From: Deltaproteobacteria bacterium
GTDB taxonomy: Bacteria > Desulfobacterota > Desulfuromonadia > Desulfuromonadales > BM103
DNA: 64,000 nucleotides
Direction of reading: 5' to 3'
NCBI GenBank assembly: GCA_024279915.1
Contig: JAJRRB010000078.1
Span: 1-64,000 of the forward strand
Below, piece by piece: positions 36,275-47,042 of this stretch. The number at the start of each line of letters is the position of its first letter. Positions within the stretch are counted from its first letter, which is position 1. Position numbers and translations under genes: made by a program. The notes below the pieces were generated by a model, which did not search any database, had not been told where the DNA came from, and saw nothing but the letters and a program-made list of their open reading frames with translations.

Positions 36275-36961
36275 ATGTCAAAGCTCTCTGAAAAATTGAC
36301 CGCCCGTGAGTTCGTCTGGGAACACAAGTTGCGCCAAAGGATAACTTTGGAGCAAATCATTGTGACGGTAGGTAATGCGAAAGAGCAGTCTCAAGCGATA
36401 CAGTTTTTGGAGGCAATGGAAAAGGCCAACCCCGAACTTCTTGAAGGTATCGATCACTACACCCCCGAACTTCTCGAAGATATCGACTACCACGCTCCTG
36501 AACTGTTTGATGAGAGTGAGTATTCCAAAGCCAGGGGACGCAAGACAGCGTTAGCGTTGCCCAAAGATATCCTTTGGGAGGAGAGAATCATTCGAAGGGC
36601 CGTCAGAGAGTACAGAGACCTCTTCCATCCCTGTGAAAAACTTTTCAAAAACGCCATGAAGGGCCTACAGTACTTAAATAATCTCCTGCCAGAATTATTC
36701 GCCAAGGCCAGGGTTCAAGCAGTTGAGCAAAGAGCTCAGATCCTGACCTTCGAGATTTATTGTACATGCGACTGCACTGTCAAAGAGGATCGCCAGCCAG
36801 CGGACTCATTCAAAATTACAAACCAAGGTCGTTTTGAAAAAGTCTCAAAGCGGATAACCTGTGCCAGGCAGACTCTGGAGAGTACTGATGACAGTCGTCA
36901 GAGTGATTGGCAGTTCTTCCTGGATCGGTTAGGTGAAGTTGCACCGGAGATGCTGAATTAA
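36275..36961 (+). CDS. Unrecognised soluble protein with short tandem repeats
   Basis: 228 residues, mostly charged helix, no signal or membrane segment. Residues 53-85 contain three 11-residue repeats starting PELLEGIDHYT, PELLEDIDYHA and PELFDESEYSK. A CTCDCT cluster and scattered Cys/Trp occur later. No family recognised. A weak GGAGTG site precedes the ATG. Isolated between the M16 peptidase gene and the envelope operon, which lies 300 bp away. Confidence 0.6.
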   Translation: MSKLSEKLTAREFVWEHKLRQRITLEQIIVTVGNAKEQSQAIQFLEAMEKANPELLEGIDHYTPELLEDIDYHAPELFDESEYSKARGRKTALALPKDILWEERIIRRAVREYRDLFHPCEKLFKNAMKGLQYLNNLLPELFAKARVQAVEQRAQILTFEIYCTCDCTVKEDRQPADSFKITNQGRFEKVSKRITCARQTLESTDDSRQSDWQFFLDRLGEVAPEMLN

Positions 36962-37260
36962 TATAGTCCGTCTGCCTCGGGTAAACATTCTCTTCATAAC
37001 TCACGATTATCATTAACAATAGCAATCATTCAGAACAAATTCTTATTCACGCTTGCGCAATTCATCTCTACAGCCCCTGTCCATGTCCTCTAATTTTTAA
37101 ATCTATCCGTCAGTTAAGGCGGCTCATCCAATAATCTTTTCGAGCGTTTGTTCATTTTGCTAAAAGCAAATGCTATAATGTTTACGGGAATGATTTCAGA
37201 GTCTTGCCTCTGCTTACATGGTGGGACTGCATCTATACTTCTTCAGATGGGCAGGTGCCT
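36962..37260. other. Intergenic region before the envelope operon
   Basis: 299 bp, AT-rich, without a convincing gene. It contains the candidate operon promoter at 37151-37179 and a short TTTGC-TAAAA-GCAAA hairpin within its spacer. Confidence 0.5.
37151..37179 (+). promoter_or_regulatory. Candidate sigma-70 promoter of the envelope operon
   Basis: TTCATT (37151-37156, three of six matches to the -35 consensus) and TATAAT (37174-37179, perfect) with a 17-bp spacer. It lies about 80 bp before the first gene. Confidence 0.5.
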
Positions 37261-38130
37261 ATGCATCCATTCGGAAACAGTGCTCTTCAGATCCCTTCGC
37301 CAGTTCGGGCAATCTTCGTTCGGAGCTTTTGCATAGTCACGGTTCTTATTATTACAGCAACCCCACTCTACGCCATCGATCAGAATTCAATCCGTAGCAG
37401 TGTCTTCGCTCTTGATAGCGCCAGACAAACAGCCATTCACGAGTTTGAAGAGACAGCTTTGTCTGCCAGTGAAGCAACCGATTACAAGGACTTTATCGTC
37501 TACCTCAATACCCGGATCATCAACTACTGCCAGGAGCTCGCTGAAGAGGGTGGCCTGGTTGCCCTGGAGGGGCTACCATGCCCCACTGGCCCAAGCAGTT
37601 CCGGTACTGAAGCGACACTAGTATCCTCAGGAGCAGCGGTCTTTTACACCACAGGCGCTGGTGAAGCTCCACAGACTCAGGCGGAGAAAAGAGCTGAGCT
37701 CGATGGCGACTTTCTCAACACTCTGGGTGAGTTCGACGAGATGCTCCTGAAGGAAGAAGACAAGCTTGCCACCAGAGTTCCCAGCCAGAGAGAGTCTGCC
37801 AGCGCCAGTTCTTCTGATGACTCCGGGAATGATGGTGACGGCGGTGAGGCCGGTTCCGAAGAATCTGGTGAGCAAGGTGAGGGTGATGCTGTTGCCGACG
37901 CGCAAGCAGGTCAACCGGGAACCGAGTCTGATACCCAGAGCGATGTTGGTGCTGGTAATGCTGAGGTGGATCATTCGGTATACGGAGCACCTGGCGGCAA
38001 GCTGCCACCGCCCGAGGATGACGATATTGTTGCACGACAGTTGCGTGAAGCAGCTGAAAAGGAACCTGATCCCGAGTTAAAAAAGAAACTTTGGGAAGAA
38101 TATTGGAAATACAAGGGCGTGAGCAAGTAG
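37261..38130 (+). CDS. Envelope operon gene 1: exported acidic protein
   Basis: 289 residues from the ATG at 37261 (a GTG/ATG further upstream is possible). A signal peptide at about residues 18-40 (FCIVTVLIITATPLYA) is followed by helices (RQTAIHEFEETALSASEATD). Residues 180-235 form a low-complexity Ser/Gly/Glu/Asp region. It ends in a conserved-looking helix (ARQLREAAEKEPDPELKKK). No known family. Likely periplasmic. First gene of an eight-gene operon with a TolQ/ExbB-like channel; 12 bp before gene 2. Confidence 0.7.
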   Translation: MHPFGNSALQIPSPVRAIFVRSFCIVTVLIITATPLYAIDQNSIRSSVFALDSARQTAIHEFEETALSASEATDYKDFIVYLNTRIINYCQELAEEGGLVALEGLPCPTGPSSSGTEATLVSSGAAVFYTTGAGEAPQTQAEKRAELDGDFLNTLGEFDEMLLKEEDKLATRVPSQRESASASSSDDSGNDGDGGEAGSEESGEQGEGDAVADAQAGQPGTESDTQSDVGAGNAEVDHSVYGAPGGKLPPPEDDDIVARQLREAAEKEPDPELKKKLWEEYWKYKGVSK

Positions 38131-38142
38131 GGGGAGTCCAAG

Positions 38143-39366
38143 GTGAAAATTCGATTCTTCGTGCTGCTTATAGCACTCCTGATGATTACCGGATGCGCCT
38201 CGTTGCGGAACAAGGTCGCAGATGGTGTGCAGCCTGTCATCGCAACCCAGGAACTCGATAGTTCCGAATTGCTTGATGTGGCGATTGTGGTCTTCGACTC
38301 CGAAGCATTGACGGAGAAGGAGATCCGTAAGTTGGGCTTGTCAGAAGAAATACGTCAAGCCGAAGAGCGCTATGTCCCTATCCACCTCAAGTACACCATG
38401 CAGAGAACGGGACAATGGGGGGCGGTACGGGTGGTGCCTGCCGAGAGCGATGCCCATGTTCAGGTTAAAGGAAACATCATCCATTCCGACGGTGAACGTC
38501 TTACCCTCGAACTCGAAGCTTTCGATGCGCGCGGTGTCAAATGGTTCGAAAAAACCTATTCTGAAACACCCAGACTGGAAGAGTACCACGGTCTTGCTAC
38601 TGGAGAAAAAGACCCCTTCCAGGATCTTTACAACACTATTGCCAACGACCTGTTAGAGCATCGCAGCAAGTTGTCGGTCGATGATGTTCTTAAGATCCAG
38701 CAGATTTCCGAACTTAGGACCGCTCAGAATATGGCTGCGGATGCTTTTGCCGGGCATCTTTCCCGCGACGAGGATGGCATTTATTCGCTGGTTCGATTGC
38801 CGGTTGAGGACGATCCCATGCTCAAGCGGGTGCGTGCCGTTAAGATTCGTGATGATATGATGCTCGATACCATCAACGGTCATTACGAGAATTATTACAA
38901 CGATCTCTGGCAGCCCTATGCGGACTGGCGGAAGCTCTACAACGAAGAGCTCGCGGCATTGAAGGAGGTCCAGAAGCAGGCTCTGACCCGTCAACTCTTT
39001 GGTGTCGCCGCTGTTGTCGGTGGGGTCCTGCTCAGCACCAGCAACAATAGCCTTTCCTCTTCGGGATTACCGGGAGTAATGGTTATCGGTGGTGCTGCGG
39101 CGATCCATAGTGGCTTTCAGAAGTGGGAGGAGACCAAGATCCACAAAGATGTGATCGAAGAACTTAATATGTCCTTTTCCTCCGAAGCTGAGCCTCTGGT
39201 TGTGGAAGTGGTTGGTGAAACCGTAAGGCTCACCGGATCGGCTGAGGAACAGTATCAGAAATGGCGCGAGATGTTGCGGGACATTTATGCTGCGGAGACG
39301 GGTTTACCTCCTGACTCAGCTGGAGAAGAGATGCCTGTTCCCTCCTCCTCCGCAGCAGACAAGTGA
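38143..39366 (+). CDS. Envelope operon gene 2: lipoprotein of unknown function
   Basis: 407 residues from a GTG with GGGGGAG upstream. Lipobox MITGC at residue 18 after a hydrophobic signal. A soluble domain with alternating strands and helices follows (VRVVPAESDAHVQVKGNIIH, FDARGVKWFEKTYSETPRL). About residues 290-325 are Gly/Ala-rich and hydrophobic (FGVAAVVGGVLLSTS, GVMVIGGAAAIHSG), resembling a membrane-inserting glycine-zipper hairpin. No recognised family. Probably outer-membrane anchored, facing the periplasm. 9 bp before gene 3. Confidence 0.7.
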   Translation: MKIRFFVLLIALLMITGCASLRNKVADGVQPVIATQELDSSELLDVAIVVFDSEALTEKEIRKLGLSEEIRQAEERYVPIHLKYTMQRTGQWGAVRVVPAESDAHVQVKGNIIHSDGERLTLELEAFDARGVKWFEKTYSETPRLEEYHGLATGEKDPFQDLYNTIANDLLEHRSKLSVDDVLKIQQISELRTAQNMAADAFAGHLSRDEDGIYSLVRLPVEDDPMLKRVRAVKIRDDMMLDTINGHYENYYNDLWQPYADWRKLYNEELAALKEVQKQALTRQLFGVAAVVGGVLLSTSNNSLSSSGLPGVMVIGGAAAIHSGFQKWEETKIHKDVIEELNMSFSSEAEPLVVEVVGETVRLTGSAEEQYQKWREMLRDIYAAETGLPPDSAGEEMPVPSSSAADK

Positions 39367-39375
39367 GACCAGTCT

Positions 39376-40902
39376 ATGACCGAAGATTCCCGCCGTAAAA
39401 AAGATATCAGCCGTCCTGCTCTGAGACCTCCTGATGCAACCGGAGGTGCAGAACAGACATCCTCTCGCACCGTGCCTCTGATGATACTGGCCTGCGGTCT
39501 GTTGCTGGTCGTTGCTGCTCTGCTGATTCTCTTCCTGCCACTTCAGCAGGACGACCCGGTCATTGTTCAGCAAACGGAACAACCAGATGTCCATTCAGTC
39601 GTGCCGCAACCTCCGCCCTCAAGCGTACCGCAACCTCCATCAGGGCAGGTCACTACCAATGATGATTGGGTTCAAGAGATCGACCGGTTGATGGAGGTAT
39701 GGTTGCAGAAACAGGCAGAGGCTGAATCTGTGAATGTAGCGACCTGGGGTGGTGATGCCTATACTGGTGCGGTCTCGCTGGTCAAAGAGTGTGACCGCCT
39801 GCTGGGTGAGCAGCAGTATCTTACTGCAAAAGCCGCCTGTGAGGAGGCGATCGATGGTCTGGGCGATCTCATGGCGTCGCAAGATGATCTGCTCGAATCG
39901 GCCATTGCCGCTGGCCTGCTCACTCTGGATCATGATGACCCGGAGCAGGATGATCCAGAAGCCGCTTCCGGTCATTTTCAACGGGCCCTTGCTCTGGACG
40001 CTGATGATGAAAGAGCCGTAATCGGCCTCCACCGGGCAGAACAACGCCCCGCTGTTCTCAACTTCCTGCGGGATGGGCTGGCCATGGAGAATGCAGGTGA
40101 TCCTGATGGCGCCTTACTTGCCTTCACTGCGGCCGCAGAGCTTGACCCGGAATTCGAGCCAGCGCAGGAGGCCCAGTCCCGAGTACGTGCAGAGATTGCC
40201 GAAAAGGAGTTTCAACAGGCGATGAGTCGTGCCCTGCAGGCAATGTCTGATGGCAAGCTGTCTAAAGCCAGATCAGCCCTGCAAAAAGCCGAGTCGATCA
40301 GGCCCGGTGATCGTACTGTTCGTGATCTCAAACAACAGCTTGCCCGAACGCAACTTGCTGGCAGGTTGACCGTTTTACGCCAAAATGCGGAACGCTTTGA
40401 ACACAAAGAGCATTGGCCTGAGGCACTGAAAGCCTGCAATGAGGCTCTCTCCCTCGATTCACATGCTGCTTTCGCTGCCAGCTGCAAGGAGAGGGTGAGC
40501 GTGCGCATCGATCTGGACAATCGCCTGAAAAGTATTTTGGCCAAACCGGAGCGACTGTTCGCGGATGGCCCCCTGCAAGAGGCTCGTCAAGTCCTGGCCT
40601 ACGCCTCAGAGGTGACTCCGCGCAGACCGATCCTCGCCTTGCAGATTAATCAGATCGATCAACTGATCACTCTCTCTGAAGCAGAGATTGAGGTGGTCAT
40701 CCGCTCAGATGGCCTGACAGAGGTGGTGATTTATCATGTTGGCCGTCTGGGGCTTTTTCAAGAGAAACATCTCGTCCTGCGCACGGGCAACTACACTGCT
40801 ACCGGTAGCCGCAATGGTTATAGAGATGTACGACAGACGCTCACAGTCAGGCCGGGGTCTGGCAAGATGGTCTTCACCCTGCGCTGCGAGGAACCGATTT
40901 GA
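39376..40902 (+). CDS. Envelope operon gene 3: single-pass TPR protein
   Basis: 508 residues. A cytoplasmic N-terminus of about 35 residues, one membrane helix (VPLMILACGLLLVVAALLIL, about residues 33-53), then a Pro/Gln-rich linker. A long periplasmic TPR-like helical domain follows (GHFQRALALDADDERAVIGL, ALLAFTAAAELDPEFEPAQE, ALKACNEALSLDSHAAFAAS). The last 90 residues are beta-rich and PEGA-like (LVLRTGNYTATGSRNGYRDV). Probably a periplasmic scaffold of the operon's complex. Its stop overlaps the TTG start of gene 4 (TTGA). Confidence 0.72.
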   Translation: MTEDSRRKKDISRPALRPPDATGGAEQTSSRTVPLMILACGLLLVVAALLILFLPLQQDDPVIVQQTEQPDVHSVVPQPPPSSVPQPPSGQVTTNDDWVQEIDRLMEVWLQKQAEAESVNVATWGGDAYTGAVSLVKECDRLLGEQQYLTAKAACEEAIDGLGDLMASQDDLLESAIAAGLLTLDHDDPEQDDPEAASGHFQRALALDADDERAVIGLHRAEQRPAVLNFLRDGLAMENAGDPDGALLAFTAAAELDPEFEPAQEAQSRVRAEIAEKEFQQAMSRALQAMSDGKLSKARSALQKAESIRPGDRTVRDLKQQLARTQLAGRLTVLRQNAERFEHKEHWPEALKACNEALSLDSHAAFAASCKERVSVRIDLDNRLKSILAKPERLFADGPLQEARQVLAYASEVTPRRPILALQINQIDQLITLSEAEIEVVIRSDGLTEVVIYHVGRLGLFQEKHLVLRTGNYTATGSRNGYRDVRQTLTVRPGSGKMVFTLRCEEPI

Positions 40903-43367
40903 ATCGCCTGGTTGAAATATTCGACAAGAATGAAGTACGCAAGCTCGATGAGACCAGCTTGCCGTTACTTATCGGCGTGGATGATACCGCCCATATCCGT
41001 TTGCAGGGTCAACTGGATGAAGATCTGGATGGCGAAGGCGGCATCGTTGCGTACCTGGCAGAGTCCCGCAACCATCTTTATCTGCAGCCTGCAGAGGACA
41101 CATCGGTAAGCATCCTCTATCACAATGATGAGCCACTCACCGGTTCGGTCTGGTTGAAGTCGGGCGACACGACCCGTATCGGTGATTCCTTGATCCGCTG
41201 GCATCTTGCCGGACAATGTGTGGAAATCCATATCAGCAAAGCCACGACAAGAGTACTGCAGCCTCCTCTTGAACCGCCGGACAGCCCGAAAGAAAAATGT
41301 GCCGAGAACGTCACGGATGAGCCTGTCTTGCCGGTGACAGAGAGTCCTCTCTCGGATGATCCCGGGCCGGATGGCAGCAGGTTCCGTAAGCCTGCCATTG
41401 TCCTCTTTGTGCTGCTCCTGATTGCAGCGGCATTTGTGCTGCTGGCCAATCCCATCGCAGTCACGGTAACGCCCACTCCGGACAGCCTTTCCATTTCCGG
41501 CTTTCCGCCAGCGGTGAAGTTCGGTGATAGCTATCTGGGAATCTCTGGTGGCTACACTCTGCATGCCGAGAAGCAAGGCTATCGTCCTCTCGAAGAAGCG
41601 ATCACGATTTCCAGCAACAACAGTCATTACGATTTCACCATGGAGAAGTTGCCCGGCCTGATTGACCTGACTAGCACACCGGTCGGGGTGACCGTCCTGA
41701 TTGACGGTGCCTTGGTCGGAAAAACCCCGTTGCAGGGAGTCGAGATTTCTGCTGGCAACCGCTCTCTTCGTTTCGAACATGAACGCTATCTGCCGCTTGA
41801 AAGAATTGTCGAGGTTGCAGGGTTTGGCGAAAAGCAGAACCTGCAGGTTGAGCTTGAACCTGCCTGGGCTGTCGTCAGCCTACAGACAGAACCGGCAGGG
41901 GCAACTCTCATGGTTGACGGTGAGGAGCAGGGGCTGACTCCGCTGCAGTTGGAACTGATTGCAGGTGAGCGTCAATTGCTTTTCAGCAAGGAGGACTTCT
42001 CCACCCTTGAAGTTGACCTTACCGTCGCGGCGGGGCAGGATCTGGAGCCCGCCGTTTATCGGCTTGAACCGTCACCAGCGACACTGGCCATCTCATCTGT
42101 TCCGGCTGGAGCCACGGTGACCGTCGAAGGCAGCTACAGAGGCTTGACGCCACTTTCAATCACCCTGCCATCCGGAAGCGAACAGACTCTCCGCTTGACC
42201 CTGGCTGGCTATTTGTCGGCAAGCCGCAAGCTGAAGCTTAACCCAGCAGAGGAACGTGAACTCAGCATCAAACTTGATCCACAGTATGGGACCGTCTTCA
42301 TCACTGCGACACCGGCAGAGTCAACGCTTTATATCGATGGTAAAAAACAGAAGCAGGCGACCGGGCGGTTTCGGCTCACCACCAGACTCCATAGCTTGGA
42401 ACTGAGAGCTAAAGGCTATGAGAGCGTGACCAAAAAGGTGACGGCTCAATCGGGCTACAGCCAGCGCATCGAGATTGACCTGCAGCGAAAACAGACCGCG
42501 ACTCAGACTGGAACTCAGATCAAGGCCTTGACCGGAGCTGAGCCTTCTAAAACAACCGGGATCGGTCAGCAACTCGTCCTGATCAGACCGAAGCCTTTTC
42601 TGATGGGAGCCTCCAGAAAAGAAGCCGGGCGGCGAGCCAACGAAAGAGAACATCAGGTCACCATGCAGAGCGGTTTTTATTTGTCCACCAGAGAGGTGAC
42701 GAATGCGGAGTATAAACGCTTCCAGGGACAACACTCTTCCGGGATGGCAGGCAACCGCTCTCTTGAAATAGACTCCCACCCGGTGGTCAATGTCACCTGG
42801 GATGATGCCGCGCGTTTCCTGAACTGGCTCAGTAAACACGACGGTCTGCCGCCTTCCTACCGTGAAGAGAACGGCAGCATAGTTGTTGCCGAGGCCAGTG
42901 GGATAGGCTACCGTCTACCCACCGAATCGGAATGGGCTTTTGCCGCCCGTATGGCGGGCCAGAAAGAGCAGGTACGCTACCCCTGGTCGGGGAAATATCC
43001 GCCCAAAATGAAGGCGGGAAACTTTGCCGATGAATCGGCCCGACATTTATTGCCCGTGGTGATCAAGGGGGATAGCGATGGTTTCCCGGCGAGTGCTCCA
43101 AGCGGTTCTTTCATGGCCAATCCTGCGGGCATCTACGATCTCGGCGGCAATGTTGCTGAATGGTGTCATGACTATTACGCAGCCAATATTGCCAGTGTTG
43201 GCAAAGGCGTGGCCGATCCGATGGGTCCCGGGGCGGGGAATCACCACGTAGTCAGAGGATCCAGTTGGCGCAATGCGAGCATTACCGAACTGCGTTTCAG
43301 TTACCGCCGTTACAGCCGGGAATCAGCCAATGATATTGGCTTCCGGATCGCGAGGTATGCACAATGA
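40899..43367 (+). CDS. Envelope operon gene 4: FHA-like, PEGA repeats and SUMF1 domain
   Basis: 822 residues. N-terminal 125 residues are cytosolic and FHA-like (LKSGDTTRIGDSLIRWHL), then a membrane helix (about 166-188, AIVLFVLLLIAAAFVLLANP). Four clear PEGA repeats follow (PVGVTVLIDGALVGKTPL, PAGATLMVDGEEQGLTPL, PAGATVTVEGSYRGLTPL, PAESTLYIDGKKQ) plus a degenerate first one. The last 260 residues are a formylglycine-generating-enzyme/SUMF1 fold (SGFYLSTREVTNAEYKRF, YRLPTESEWAFAAR, GGNVAEWCHDYY, VVRGSSWRN, GFRIARY). The paired active cysteines of true FGE are absent, so it is probably a binding module. TTG start coupled to gene 3. Confidence 0.82.
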   Translation: MNRLVEIFDKNEVRKLDETSLPLLIGVDDTAHIRLQGQLDEDLDGEGGIVAYLAESRNHLYLQPAEDTSVSILYHNDEPLTGSVWLKSGDTTRIGDSLIRWHLAGQCVEIHISKATTRVLQPPLEPPDSPKEKCAENVTDEPVLPVTESPLSDDPGPDGSRFRKPAIVLFVLLLIAAAFVLLANPIAVTVTPTPDSLSISGFPPAVKFGDSYLGISGGYTLHAEKQGYRPLEEAITISSNNSHYDFTMEKLPGLIDLTSTPVGVTVLIDGALVGKTPLQGVEISAGNRSLRFEHERYLPLERIVEVAGFGEKQNLQVELEPAWAVVSLQTEPAGATLMVDGEEQGLTPLQLELIAGERQLLFSKEDFSTLEVDLTVAAGQDLEPAVYRLEPSPATLAISSVPAGATVTVEGSYRGLTPLSITLPSGSEQTLRLTLAGYLSASRKLKLNPAEERELSIKLDPQYGTVFITATPAESTLYIDGKKQKQATGRFRLTTRLHSLELRAKGYESVTKKVTAQSGYSQRIEIDLQRKQTATQTGTQIKALTGAEPSKTTGIGQQLVLIRPKPFLMGASRKEAGRRANEREHQVTMQSGFYLSTREVTNAEYKRFQGQHSSGMAGNRSLEIDSHPVVNVTWDDAARFLNWLSKHDGLPPSYREENGSIVVAEASGIGYRLPTESEWAFAARMAGQKEQVRYPWSGKYPPKMKAGNFADESARHLLPVVIKGDSDGFPASAPSGSFMANPAGIYDLGGNVAEWCHDYYAANIASVGKGVADPMGPGAGNHHVVRGSSWRNASITELRFSYRRYSRESANDIGFRIARYAQ

Positions 43368-43582
43368 GAATCTTCATCATCATAATGACTCTGCTCCTGA
43401 CCGCCAGTATTGGCTTTTCTGCCGACAAGGATTCTAAACAGGACTCAAAAGATGCCGCCGTACAGAAGAGTACCAGCCAGAAAAGTGTGACCAGGAAAAA
43501 GACACCGACCTGGCCGCGTCCCTATAAATCAACGGAAGAGATAAGTGTGGACAGCACTGTCCCGTTTCCAACCGATATTTGA
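43364..43582 (+). CDS. Envelope operon gene 5: small secreted protein
   Basis: 72 residues: a signal peptide (about 1-19, IFIIIMTLLLTASIGFSA) followed by a Lys/Ser-rich segment and a Pro-rich end (TPTWPRPYKS). No family recognised. ATGA overlap with gene 4 and 16 bp before the channel gene. A small periplasmic partner is the likeliest role. Confidence 0.6.
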   Translation: MRIFIIIMTLLLTASIGFSADKDSKQDSKDAAVQKSTSQKSVTRKKTPTWPRPYKSTEEISVDSTVPFPTDI

Positions 43583-43598
43583 ATGAGGTGATACGCTT

Positions 43599-44405
43599 AT
43601 GCGCGTAAAAAACTTTCCCACCGAGATGGTCTACCAGATTTTCAGTCTGCTGCTGGTCTTCATCATCGTGCATGGAACCTATGTCTCCCTGATCCGGCCC
43701 AAGGCGGAGTCCTTCCTGACGATGCAACAAGCTCAGCTGCTGGAGCAGCCTGGCGCGGTTCAGGAGCAGAACTTCTACGTCGTGATCCGTGATTTTGAGC
43801 AGGAAGCCTGTCTGGTCCTCTTCTTCTGGGCACTGACGATTCTCATTTACAAGGGGGTCGTGGTCTGGCGCCAGCAGGGCCAGTTGGAGGTAGATCTTTT
43901 GCAACTGCCGGAGAATATGCCGATCGGTCCGGAAGATACCCGTGAACTGATTGGCCGTCTGCAGGAGATTCCGCATGAGAGTCGCGATTTCCTCTTGCCG
44001 TCAGCCCTGTTGGATGCGGTCCAGAGGTTCTCTGCAACCCGCAATATTCAGGACGCCGCCACCGCAGTACGCGAAACCTGCGAGACCCATGGTGACCGAC
44101 TCGATTCGGAGCTTTCCACCATTCGCTACATTGCCTGGGCGATCCCCTCGGTTGGTTGCATCGGTACCGTACGCGGTATTGGCGCAGCCCTCTCCCAGGC
44201 TCATCGTGCTGTCGAAGGAGATATCACCGGCGTCACCCAGAACCTCGGTGTTGCCTTCAATTCCACCTTCATCGCCCTGGTCTTAAGCATCATCATGATG
44301 TTCTTTATTCATCAACTTCAGCACAGGCAGGAGCGTTTGATTCACGATGCCGTCGCCTATTGTCAACGCAACCTGATCAACAAGCTGCGAATCAAACTCT
44401 CCTAG
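43599..44405 (+). CDS. Envelope operon gene 6: MotA/TolQ/ExbB-like proton channel
   Basis: 268 residues with membrane segments near 10-30, 70-90, 170-190 and 205-232. The family core is clear: WAIPSVGCIGTVRGIGAALS in the third helix region, then VTQNLGVAFNSTFIALVLSIIMMF, as in TolQ/ExbB/MotA, whose rings conduct protons. The long cytoplasmic loop (about 95-165) is helical. No ExbD or TolR gene follows; instead two vWA proteins with a related membrane segment do. RBS GAGGTG upstream. Its stop overlaps a 30-bp repeat end. Confidence 0.85.
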   Translation: MRVKNFPTEMVYQIFSLLLVFIIVHGTYVSLIRPKAESFLTMQQAQLLEQPGAVQEQNFYVVIRDFEQEACLVLFFWALTILIYKGVVVWRQQGQLEVDLLQLPENMPIGPEDTRELIGRLQEIPHESRDFLLPSALLDAVQRFSATRNIQDAATAVRETCETHGDRLDSELSTIRYIAWAIPSVGCIGTVRGIGAALSQAHRAVEGDITGVTQNLGVAFNSTFIALVLSIIMMFFIHQLQHRQERLIHDAVAYCQRNLINKLRIKLS

Positions 44406-44434
44406 CAGCCAGTTTATTGATTGTCCGACAGGCT
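44405..44434. repeat. 30-bp end of the family A element inside the envelope operon
   Basis: GCAGCCAGTTTATTGATTGT followed by CCGACAGGCT is identical to the right end of the 3620-3783 element. It begins at the last base of the channel gene's stop codon and fills most of the 49-bp gap before gene 7. Confidence 0.65.
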
Positions 44435-44454
44435 CATAAACAGAGGTCGATGCC

Positions 44455-45552
44455 GTGCCCAGAAACAGGCGCAGTACATCACAATTTAACCTGGCGTTCC
44501 TTGACGTCATGTGCTGCGGCTTTGGCGCTGTCGTTCTGTTGGTGATGCTCCTTAACGGCGACATGGTCGCTACCCGCAGGGAGATTGTCACTGATCTGCG
44601 CAGTGAAGTGACGCGACTCGAACGTCAGGTCAAAGTCGGTACAGAACATCTGGTTCGTCTGCAGAACAGCATGGTTCATACCGAAAAGGAGTTCGTTAGA
44701 ACCGAGGGGCTCTCAGAACAGATCATCGCCAGCATCGAGCAGACCAAGGTCGAACTGGCCACGATGAGTGGCAAGAGCCAGGCCGCCAGGAAACATATCA
44801 ACGCCCTGCAATCGGACCTCCTCTCTCTGGATAAGGAAAGTCGCCGAATCGGTGCGGAACAGCAGACGGAGTTGGCAAAAGGAACCAAGACGCGTGAATT
44901 CATCGGCCAGGGCGATCGGCAATACCTCACCGGTCTGCGCCTTGGTGGCAAGAGGGTTCTGCTGCTGGTTGATGCTTCTGCCAGCATGCTCGATGAAACC
45001 ATCGTCAATATCATCATCAAGCGCAACCTTGACGACCGGACCAAGCGGGCTTCACCTAAATGGCAGCGCACCATCAGAACCGTCGAGTGGCTGACGGCCA
45101 ACCTGCCCGCAGATAGTTCGCTACAGCTCTACACCTTCAATACCAAAGCCTCCCCGGTGGTCACAGACCTTAAAGGTAGCTGGATCGCGACGTCGGATAA
45201 CAAGAATATCAATCGGATGATTGCCGCATTGAAGCAAGCCGTTCCCCAGGGTGGAACCAGCCTCTACAATGCTTTTGCAGACGCTGCGCGCATGAGACCG
45301 CGTCCAGACAACATCCTCTTGCTCACCGACGGGCTGCCAACCCAGGGCAAGAATAAGCCCACGAAAAACACAATCTCCGGCGACGAACGGCTGAAGCTGT
45401 TCCTCCAGGCGACCAAAGCCCTGCCGCGGTCTGTACCGGTTAACACCATCCTCTTCCCGATGGAAGGCGATCCCATGGCCGCCGTCTCATTCTGGCAACT
45501 TGCGATCGATACGGGTGGTTCCTTCCTGACCCCGACGAGGGACTGGCCATGA
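44455..45552 (+). CDS. Envelope operon gene 7: single-pass von Willebrand A protein with ExbD-like membrane motif
   Basis: 365 residues from a GTG (GAGG upstream). A short basic N-terminus, then the membrane segment FNLAFLDVMCCGFGAVVLLV (about residues 10-29), whose F-L-D-V-M resembles the F-I-D-V-M at the proton-carrying Asp of ExbD. A coiled coil (about 45-145) leads to a vWA domain with the MIDAS motif LLLVDASASMLDE, GGTSLYNAF and NILLLTDGLPTQ. Topology suggests the vWA domain is periplasmic. ATGA overlap with gene 8. I infer that it pairs with the channel. Confidence 0.8.
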   Translation: MPRNRRSTSQFNLAFLDVMCCGFGAVVLLVMLLNGDMVATRREIVTDLRSEVTRLERQVKVGTEHLVRLQNSMVHTEKEFVRTEGLSEQIIASIEQTKVELATMSGKSQAARKHINALQSDLLSLDKESRRIGAEQQTELAKGTKTREFIGQGDRQYLTGLRLGGKRVLLLVDASASMLDETIVNIIIKRNLDDRTKRASPKWQRTIRTVEWLTANLPADSSLQLYTFNTKASPVVTDLKGSWIATSDNKNINRMIAALKQAVPQGGTSLYNAFADAARMRPRPDNILLLTDGLPTQGKNKPTKNTISGDERLKLFLQATKALPRSVPVNTILFPMEGDPMAAVSFWQLAIDTGGSFLTPTRDWP

Positions 45553-46547
45553 AAGCTCGCCGTCGTCAGACTGAGGTTTTCAACCTCTCCTTCCTCGATG
45601 TCATCTCCTGTGGTTTCGGAGCGATCATCCTGCTGCTGGTTATTTCGAAGATCTCCGAGCCTCGTGTCATCGAACAGACCAATGTCGATCTCTCTGGTCT
45701 GGTGGTGCAGTTGGAAGAGGAACTCCACGAGATTCGTGGTGAAACCCGGATTCTCAACCGACAGCTTGTTGCCAGACAGGAGCAGTTGTCTGAACATAAG
45801 GAGAAGCTAGCGCGGCTGCAGGGGGCCATGACCAACATTGAAGGAGAATATCACCTTGCCAGTACCGCATCGGCAGCGCAGAGCCTGATTGAAGGTGAGT
45901 TGAAGAGCGCCAAGCAGGAATTGACTGCTGAAATGCGCCAGCTTCTCACTGATTACCAGCGTCCCAAGGAGGATGCTGTGATCGGTGGTATACCTGTGGA
46001 CAGTGAATACATCATCTTTGTGATCGACACCTCAGGCAGCATGCAGCGCTTCGCCTGGCCGCTGGTGCGGCAGAAGATGAAGGAGATTCTCGATATCTAC
46101 CCGAAAGTCAAAGGGGTACAGGTGCTCAACGATATGGGCGACTATATGTTCTCTCAATATGCCGGCAACTGGATTCCAGATTCGAAAGCCCGTCGCCGTG
46201 CTATTCTCGACCGGCTCTCCACCTGGGCGCCTTTTTCCAACTCCAGCCCGGTCGAAGGCATCACCAAGGCGATCCAGCGTTTTTACGCATCTGACAAACG
46301 GATCAGCCTTTACGTCTTCGGTGATGATTTCTCGGGCGGACTCATGCAGAATGTGGTCGACACGATCCGACGGAAAAACACGTCAGGTAGCAAAGGCAGT
46401 CGGGTGCGAATTCACACTATCGGCTTCCCTGTTCTTCTGACCCAGCCTGGAGCGGGACAGAACGCCGCTCGCTTTGCTGCCCTGATGCGTAAATTGGCTG
46501 AAGACAATAATGGCAGTTTCGTCGGATTAAGCAGTTTGCGGAGATAA
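45549..46547 (+). CDS. Envelope operon gene 8: second single-pass von Willebrand A protein
   Basis: 332 residues, paralogue of gene 7. N-terminus KARRRQTEVFNLSFLDVISC then GFGAIILLLVISK gives the same basic-FLDV-membrane layout (about residues 11-34). A coiled coil (about 45-125) leads to a vWA domain with DxSxS (FVIDTSGSMQRFA). C-terminal strands are VRIHTIGFPVLLT and NGSFVGLSSLRR. The two proteins could form a heterodimer in place of an ExbD/TolR dimer. Last gene of the operon; a glycine-zipper lipoprotein follows after 69 bp. Confidence 0.8.
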   Translation: MKARRRQTEVFNLSFLDVISCGFGAIILLLVISKISEPRVIEQTNVDLSGLVVQLEEELHEIRGETRILNRQLVARQEQLSEHKEKLARLQGAMTNIEGEYHLASTASAAQSLIEGELKSAKQELTAEMRQLLTDYQRPKEDAVIGGIPVDSEYIIFVIDTSGSMQRFAWPLVRQKMKEILDIYPKVKGVQVLNDMGDYMFSQYAGNWIPDSKARRRAILDRLSTWAPFSNSSPVEGITKAIQRFYASDKRISLYVFGDDFSGGLMQNVVDTIRRKNTSGSKGSRVRIHTIGFPVLLTQPGAGQNAARFAALMRKLAEDNNGSFVGLSSLRR

Positions 46548-46616: not shown

Positions 46617-47042
46617 ATGAAAACAACTCTTGGTCTTTTGACGTTGGTAGCAGCTCTGGCTCTGAGCGGTTGTGCCAGCACGAAAAAACCGGTTCTCTAT
46701 CCCAACACCCACCTGAACAGGGTCGGGCAGCAACAGGCCGATGCGGATATCAATGCTTGCATGCAAACCGCTCAAGCCAGTGGTGCTAATTCCGGTAAGA
46801 ACGAGGAGCTCGCCAGGAAGACGGCCAAGGCCGGTGCTGTTGGAGGTGCCACCGGAGCTGTGGTTGGTGCAATTTCTTCGAGTGGCAGCGCTGGACGTGG
46901 AGCTGCTATTGGTGGCGCCGGAGCCGCCACTGCAACCTTGATTGGCGGGGCTTTTGATGCTTCGGAGCCAACCCAGGTCTACATCCGGTTCGTTGACCAA
47001 TGTTTGCGGGATAAAGGCTATCAGCCAATCGGCTGGAGATGA
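46617..47042 (+). CDS. Glycine-zipper lipoprotein
   Basis: 141 residues. Lipobox LALSGC (Cys20) after a signal peptide. Central residues 75-120 form a Gly/Ala-rich two-helix zipper (AVGGATGAVVGAISSSGSAG, GAAIGGAGAATATLIGG). A C-terminal VDQCLRDKGYQPIGW motif is typical of the glycine-zipper outer-membrane lipoprotein family. Role probably envelope structure; unproven. RBS GAGGAC. Confidence 0.75.
   Translation: MKTTLGLLTLVAALALSGCASTKKPVLYPNTHLNRVGQQQADADINACMQTAQASGANSGKNEELARKTAKAGAVGGATGAVVGAISSSGSAGRGAAIGGAGAATATLIGGAFDASEPTQVYIRFVDQCLRDKGYQPIGWR

Follow-up and report, generated by a model that had tools for sequence, protein, structure and literature searches.

Motors of the MotA/ExbB/TolQ class, which run on the proton motive force (PMF), power nutrient import, outer-membrane integrity, flagella, gliding, and secretion. 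The DNA that we analyzed (the window) is a stretch of 64,000 nucleotides from a 3.83 Mb genome labelled Deltaproteobacteria bacterium. It contains an operon of eight genes, A to H, that encodes a channel of this class (protein F) and, as a sequence-only reading of this stretch had noted, has no gene for ExbD, TolR, or MotB. What, then, does this channel work with? That reading proposed that two paralogous membrane proteins with von Willebrand factor A (vWA) domains, encoded by gene G (vWA1) and gene H (vWA2), partner the channel in place of ExbD. Our comparisons agree, and we consider this claim to be well supported genetically, because no ExbD was detected in the loci, the vWA proteins share an invariant membrane Asp, the channel keeps a pair of threonines, and the channel is retained even where it is unlinked from the vWA pair.

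The channel and its proposed vWA partners

We compared the operon with its relatives. Named genomes were scanned with 16 aligned vWA proteins, and the best 80 of at least 569 relatives were kept, so the surveyed loci lean towards near relatives; 17 divergent loci were added later. The genes of the set were placed with profiles that were built iteratively from the window's proteins. (Five of the 91 surveyed loci are duplicates. These were removed for the 86-locus counts, residue conservation, and evolutionary distances, and were retained in the ExbD scan, the survey of neighboring genes, and the profile placement.)

Protein F belongs to the MotA/ExbB family (Pfam MotA_ExbB, E-value 4.9e-15, 55.8 bits versus a cut-off of 22.9) and has an additional hydrophobic segment near its N-terminus (residues 14-32). 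A search of PDB sequences with F itself matched nothing. A profile of F matched TolQ with an E-value of 0.06, and we used this match for the residue register only. In this gap-free alignment, Thr190 and Thr223 of F correspond to residues 145 and 178 of TolQ, which we take to be the two pore-lining threonines of TolQ. Each threonine is present in all 77 of the loci that hold F, and Arg192 is invariant as well. (A conserved ring of threonines is mentioned for such channels in PMC12204202.)

Both vWA proteins are single-pass, with the basic N-terminus that had been described for them, and with the motif FNL(A/S)FLDV, whose Asp is residue 17 and lies at the entry to the membrane. This Asp is found in 86 of 86 vWA1 proteins and 85 of 85 vWA2 proteins from distinct loci, as counted by alignment column. 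(A strict regular expression for the motif finds just 74/86 and 57/85 because the pattern fixed neighboring residues; we preferred the alignment column.) Cys21 and Gly24 are also invariant in both proteins, and a C-G-x-G-A run after the Asp distinguishes this helix from the ExbD helices that we compared. The vWA domain itself is recognized in vWA1 (Pfam VWA_2, E-value 3.2e-8); in vWA2, the match to Pfam VWA (E-value 0.001) is under its cut-off. Against the PDB, vWA1 gave only chance-level matches. Both proteins probably contain coiled coils, judging by their sequences, and vWA1 has a weak SMC-like match at residues 41-140.

Is there an ExbD nearby? A profile of 28 ExbD sequences had no matches among 7,899 open reading frames (ORFs) in the 91 surveyed loci and none in the 17 divergent loci. 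(The 28 sequences were picked by motif from 31 loci. As a control, the profile recovers 28 of 28, but these are the sequences that built it, so the control shows merely that the profile works.) Of the three MotA_ExbB channels in the host genome, the two other than F are each followed directly by an ExbD gene (on contigs C15 and C33). The genome has just these two ExbD genes, which leaves F without one. The pattern is the same in two other genomes (G281 and G283): the set's channel has no adjoining ExbD, and the remaining channels are paired.

Recurrence of the gene set

The sequence-only reading had proposed a survey of gene neighborhoods, and in that survey the whole set recurs. In 44 distinct loci, the sequence reaches 9 kb or more upstream of the vWA pair. 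All of these loci have C, D, E, and F, and all but one have A and B (43 of 44); the exception is L091, where the fetched range stops about 1.5 kb upstream of C. Gene order, considering same-strand genes only, is kept in all 44; in L092, A to D are on the opposite strand. Since the set recurs in so many distinct loci, it is not a chance association. The channel adjoins the vWA pair in 77 of the 86 distinct loci, and the other nine have less than 1.5 kb of upstream sequence. In eight of these nine, the upstream stretch contains a ninth gene, X, which is discussed below. Of ten relatives' loci, seven are complete for the eight-gene set and the other three run into contig ends; the flanking genes vary.

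The divergent loci come from the class of Exilibacterium. Of 369 sampled genomes of that class, 36 match the vWA2 profile, 28 with E-values below 1e-30. Nine of the 17 loci that we fetched have all eight families, and 15 have the channel beside the vWA pair; one of the remaining two has its channel on another contig. This is genome G497, where neither B nor F was found at the vWA locus (L181) and an F-type channel (E-value 1.4e-106) lies on separate contig C39 (L190:9302-10342, minus strand). Within about 9 kb of that channel, we found neither an ExbD nor a vWA gene nor any other gene of the set. Thus, F and the vWA pair are kept together even when they are unlinked. Two of the divergent loci (L183 and L184) are truncated at the edges of their contigs. 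In L173 and L187, the channel gene is 3' rather than 5' of the vWA pair, with the unit still together.

Every divergent member whose helix was displayed has the Asp. L174 (3516-4421, minus strand) and L175 (7637-8323, plus strand), which read ALDL, are outliers: they have a related helix, SALDLFASAMGAF, with the motif IFSMSALDLFASAMGAF and a similarly placed Asp. L174 has an F-type channel nearby. This family may be another class of motor that works without ExbD.

The spread of vWA1 is patchy. It has matches in 15 of the 58 genomes searched and in 21 of the 277 genomes of a class sample (the window's own genome is counted in both, and three matches of the latter are marginal). Each of the 18 genomes with strong matches has a second, weaker match, which is the paralogue. 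No vWA1 match was found in G002, a genome of the window's own genus that is rated complete. In a tree of vWA2, the window's sequence is next to records from Desulfuromonadales and Geopsychrobacter. One locus with the operon (L111, CAMAXE010000004.1) is titled as a metagenome-assembled genome of Klebsiella pneumoniae, and its X closely resembles the one from an uncultured gammaproteobacterium (L109); L111 is probably a mislabelled bin.

The other proteins of the operon

The genes are as tightly spaced as had been claimed: eight ORFs run from 37204 to 46547 on the plus strand, with intergenic distances of 12, 9, -4, -4, 16, 49, and -4 bases (Table 1). The left edge did need correction. It had been put at 37151, but there is no start codon there in the frame of gene A, whose ORF opens with the TTG at 37204; the ATG at 37261 is the more likely start. 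A Pfam scan of seven of the eight proteins (A-D and F-H) confirmed the TPR, PEGA/SUMF1, MotA/TolQ/ExbB, and vWA content that had been read from the sequence (with matches for C, D, F, and G, and with H below the cut-off). It found nothing over the cut-off for A or B. In the same seven proteins, there were no matches to TolR, TolA, the TolB propeller, or Pal. A scan for promoters and terminators gave the same counts as in shuffled sequence.

Table 1. Coordinates of the operon's genes and of the codons for its putative motor residues
Feature	Position	Strand	Description
gene A	37204..38130	+	secreted acidic protein; conserved C-terminal segment; 50 homologues aligned
gene B	38143..39366	+	lipoprotein, signal with ITGC; AlphaFold2 model
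gene C	39376..40902	+	TPR protein (Pfam); one hydrophobic segment, residues 35-53
gene D	40899..43367	+	FHA-like 15-101, transmembrane segment 165-183, four PEGA stretches, SUMF1/FGE 558-819
gene E	43364..43582	+	small secreted protein; conserved C-terminal peptide ending P-x-D-I
gene F	43599..44405	+	MotA/TolQ/ExbB-family channel, 268 residues
codon of Thr190 of F	44166..44168	+	TolQ alignment, conservation
codon of Thr223 of F	44265..44267	+	TolQ alignment, conservation
gene G (vWA1)	44455..45552	+	basic N-terminus, membrane helix with FNLAFLDVMCCGFGA, vWA domain with DASAS
codon of Asp17 of vWA1	44503..44505	+	invariant, 86/86
gene H (vWA2)	45549..46547	+	paralogue of vWA1, FNLSFLDVISCGFGA, vWA domain with DTSGS
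codon of Asp17 of vWA2	45597..45599	+	invariant, 85/85

Two flanking genes were considered as parts of the operon and rejected. The upstream gene (36275-36961) is unmatched in ten relatives' loci, several of which are too short to reach that far. Downstream, a Gly-zipper-like lipoprotein (46617-47042) lies 3' of the operon in close relatives; it is found in seven of the ten loci and is about 3 kb distant in L034. Outside the set, across the 91 loci (many of which lack flanks), the recurrent neighbors are an M48 protease in 17 loci, two lipoproteins in 21 and 12, and, upstream, a TPR protein in 14. In some loci, the two lipoproteins and the M48 metalloprotease are 3' of the vWA pair and the TPR protein is 5' of A (L110:12123-14939, L129:12776-13456, L127:2-1678).

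We then examined the partner proteins. Across 50 sequences, the C-terminus of A has the conserved segment DDDiVARQlREAA..E.DPeL..kLW.EYrkYK. The C-terminus of E is DI in 72 of 73 sequences, and the ending P-x-D-I is near invariant at the very C-terminus, as in a peptide ligand; an Asp ligand from E could fit the metal-binding site of vWA domains. For B, a profile search against PDB sequences had no match. The AlphaFold2 model of B (mean predicted local distance difference test, or pLDDT, of 81.5) has an alpha/beta head and a long helical hairpin (residues 225-299 and 309-348). The head's structural matches are FlgT (Z-score 11.1), the LPHT ring (10.6), PelC (10.0-10.3), TolB (9.5), and CsgG (9.4), so we predict that it has a fold of the FlgT/PelC/TolB-N/CsgG type.

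Protein D has an internal transmembrane segment and no N-terminal hydrophobic signal. Its N-terminus had been described as FHA-like, and this holds: there is no direct match to Pfam FHA, but hhalign aligns it to the C-terminal domain of X, which is itself an FHA domain, with a probability of 96.2% (E-value 2.4e-9). The FHA-like domain would be cytoplasmic, because it is placed before the single transmembrane segment. A catalytic formylglycine-generating enzyme needs two active-site cysteines. In contrast, 55 of 66 members of D have at most one Cys in their last 270 residues (48 have one and 7 have none; the window's D has one), so its SUMF1 domain is probably non-catalytic and a binding fold.

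X lies between the channel and vWA1 in 47 of the 86 loci (for example, L091:8581-10002). Of three X proteins scanned, two carry Pfam FHA (best E-value 5.6e-12). For X from L091, the AlphaFold2 model (pLDDT 88.9) matches the nucleotide-binding domain of Hsp70 with a Z-score of 32.2 (335 residues, 3.1 A, 16% identity), and Foldseek finds Hsp70 nucleotide-binding domains with an E-value of 1.2e-18; by sequence alone, the E-values for Hsp70 are just 0.13-0.85. We predict from the model that X has an Hsp70-type ATPase fold, with an FHA domain that replaces the substrate-binding domain. The FHA-like part of D is found in 29 of the 33 loci that were then unflagged for X, and it is clear in only 7 of the 32 X-flagged loci. 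A search of the window's genome with one distant query, which makes for weak evidence, did not find X.

A candidate motor, its alternatives, and its relatives

The reading that we lean towards is that these proteins form a PMF motor of the MotA/ExbB/TolQ class, in which a ring of F around a mixed vWA1/vWA2 axle drives an apparatus in the envelope. The genetic evidence supports the motor part of the proposal well. Beyond that, we infer the following arrangement, including its stoichiometry. F would be a ring-shaped channel, with one membrane helix each of vWA1 and vWA2 in its lumen as a two-chain axle. The two Asp17 residues would accept protons, facing Thr190 and Thr223 of the ring, and proton flow would rotate the ring relative to the axle. 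The coiled coils would pass this motion to two periplasmic vWA heads, which would act on C and D (both anchored in the inner membrane) and, in most members, on the lipoprotein B, with its predicted outer-membrane ring protein fold. It is plausible that the apparatus reaches this outer-membrane lipoprotein. A and E, which are small and have conserved C-terminal segments, may serve as tethers or ligands, and the FHA domain (of D or, in other lineages, of the Hsp70-like X) may be a cytoplasmic docking or switching point. The most likely job would be to power a step in the maintenance or assembly of the outer membrane, as Tol-Pal does. The lipoprotein B, the other lipoproteins, and the M48 protease weakly favor outer-membrane maintenance over motility.

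Several observations weigh against this proposal. Pfam ExbD does not match the vWA proteins, and hhalign comparisons of the vWA helix with the 28 ExbD sequences are not significant (probability 2.0-3.5%). Four control membrane segments score 0.5-1.6%, and one of them has a raw score of 16.9, versus 16.2-17.3 for the vWA helix. The alignment does pair Asp with Asp, but because it is not significant, we rejected homology to ExbD by profile. Thus, of the resemblance to the ExbD/TolR helix that had been claimed, the motif, the topology, and the Asp stand, and common descent is unsupported by profile comparison. Other channels lack a neighboring ExbD in five of the eight genomes that we compared (these are perhaps flagellar), and G280 has one more channel with no adjoining ExbD. 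Among the divergent members, E went undetected in L170 and L172, and B was not found in L173 or, in a search that had no positive control, anywhere in G497, so B is not indispensable everywhere. These counter-examples (with L181) and the unlinked channel of G497 pull in opposite directions. Foldseek with the model of B found no PDB match with an E-value of 0.001 or better (the best is TolB, at 0.0094), and unrelated helical chains reach Z-scores of 8-9 against this model via the long hairpin. The evolutionary distances of B, D, F, vWA1, and vWA2 correlate with one another (r = 0.76-0.88 across 50 loci), which speaks for the proposal but also reflects common descent. Finally, we know of no phenotype.

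Could F instead work with an ordinary ExbD or TolR that is encoded elsewhere? In that case, the vWA proteins would be side-binding transducers, like TonB or TolA, or assembly factors. The host's two ExbD genes would allow this, the vWA helix has no significant profile homology to ExbD, and PMC12204202 describes a distinct vWA family with TonB-like side-binding helices. But each host ExbD adjoins its own channel, the vWA pair co-occurs with F even when unlinked, and a side-binding helix would have no need for an invariant Asp at the membrane entry; we think this arrangement quite unlikely. It is also unlikely that the operon encodes a moving-track machine like those of Bacteroidota, in which the motor would push the SUMF1-fold protein D (compare GldK/PorK of the type IX secretion system, T9SS) and so move or secrete surface proteins. 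GldK is the best NCBIfam match of D (E-value 1.6e-33), and GldK/PorK are reported as moving track subunits in PMC12635249. However, D scores 116.7 bits against GldK, where the equivalog cut-off is 350, and it also matches enzymes that share this fold. The internal transmembrane segment of D, with no N-terminal signal, does not suit a GldK-like role either, and we recognized no adhesin or secretion pore among the recurrent neighbors (the 15 largest clusters, with four families scanned against Pfam).

If the channel were an ion-gated sensor rather than a motor, it would report the state of the envelope via cytoplasmic parts, and the FHA-type domain in D or X and the Hsp70-type ATPase fold predicted for X would fit this. 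However, the Thr/Asp pattern matches that of force-generating members, the probable coiled coils and the periplasmic arms speak against a sensor, and no kinase has a constant place (a histidine-kinase cluster occurs in 7 loci, at scattered positions), so we regard a sensor as very improbable. We give almost no credence to a defense system of the Zorya type. F does partly match ZorA (PADLOC, E-value 4.1e-5, residues 167-252), but F has 268 residues, versus 461-505 for the profiles, and lacks the long tail. PADLOC found no ZorB or effector in the seven proteins scanned (all but E), and its remaining matches are weak (AbiEi, 0.021; LmuB, 0.0052). Furthermore, the five genes whose distances we compared evolve together.

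How does the proposed motor relate to known systems? With Tol-Pal and Ton (TolQR and ExbBD), it shares the channel family, the two threonines, and a single-pass partner with an Asp, and the head of B resembles the N-terminal domain of TolB; the operon differs in having no matches to the ExbD family, TolA/TonB, TolB, or Pal, and in having two unlike axle proteins. The GldKLMN proteins of T9SS and gliding also place a PMF motor beside a SUMF1-fold protein, but the operon's channel belongs to the MotA/ExbB family, and D, with its FHA-like and PEGA parts and internal transmembrane segment, is not a GldK lipoprotein. The Agl/Glt machinery of Myxococcus has a TolQ-like channel, TPR proteins, and a single-pass FHA protein, GltG (PMC3169522). 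However, its AglQ and AglS are of the ExbD/TolR family, which has no match in the loci studied here, and the excerpted part of the gene table in PMC3169522 has no vWA axle.

The closest likeness is to the TPH-vWA/TolQ-like pairs of PMC12204202 (Mol Biol Evol 2025). As described there, these are heterologous pairs of membrane vWA proteins beside tolQ-like genes, without tolR or exbD, with a conserved Asp in the transpore helix and with AF3 models. The sequence-only reading did not recognize a named system, and this needs qualifying: the motor core is already predicted in print. For the remaining parts, the claim stands. Section 8 of that paper covers only the motor core and does not name A, B, C, D, E, or X for that family. 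Beyond that core, we found no account of an eight- or nine-gene machine or of its job in the open-licence PMC literature. A caveat is that the likeness rests on the paper's description: its representative is from Idiomarina, and there is no Idiomarina title among our best 80 loci.

We regard it as a real possibility, if just short of evenly balanced, that the operon represents a class of its own among trans-envelope proton machines, alongside the Ton, Tol, flagellar, Agl, and T9SS motors. Such a machine would combine a channel ring, a vWA1/vWA2 axle, a cytoplasmic FHA (or Hsp70-ATPase-FHA) switch, periplasmic PEGA/SUMF1 arms, and, mostly, a lipoprotein ring at the outer membrane, and it would be inherited as a single unit of eight or nine genes in Gammaproteobacteria, Desulfuromonadia, and several other groups. 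The occurrence of an Hsp70-fold/FHA protein in a motor operon hints that an envelope motor may be controlled from the cytoplasm. If our proposal is true, then the two unlike axle chains would break the symmetry that is assumed for PMF motors, and each axle Asp could be mutated separately. The fixed set of partners would make this a defined machine whose job is directly testable.

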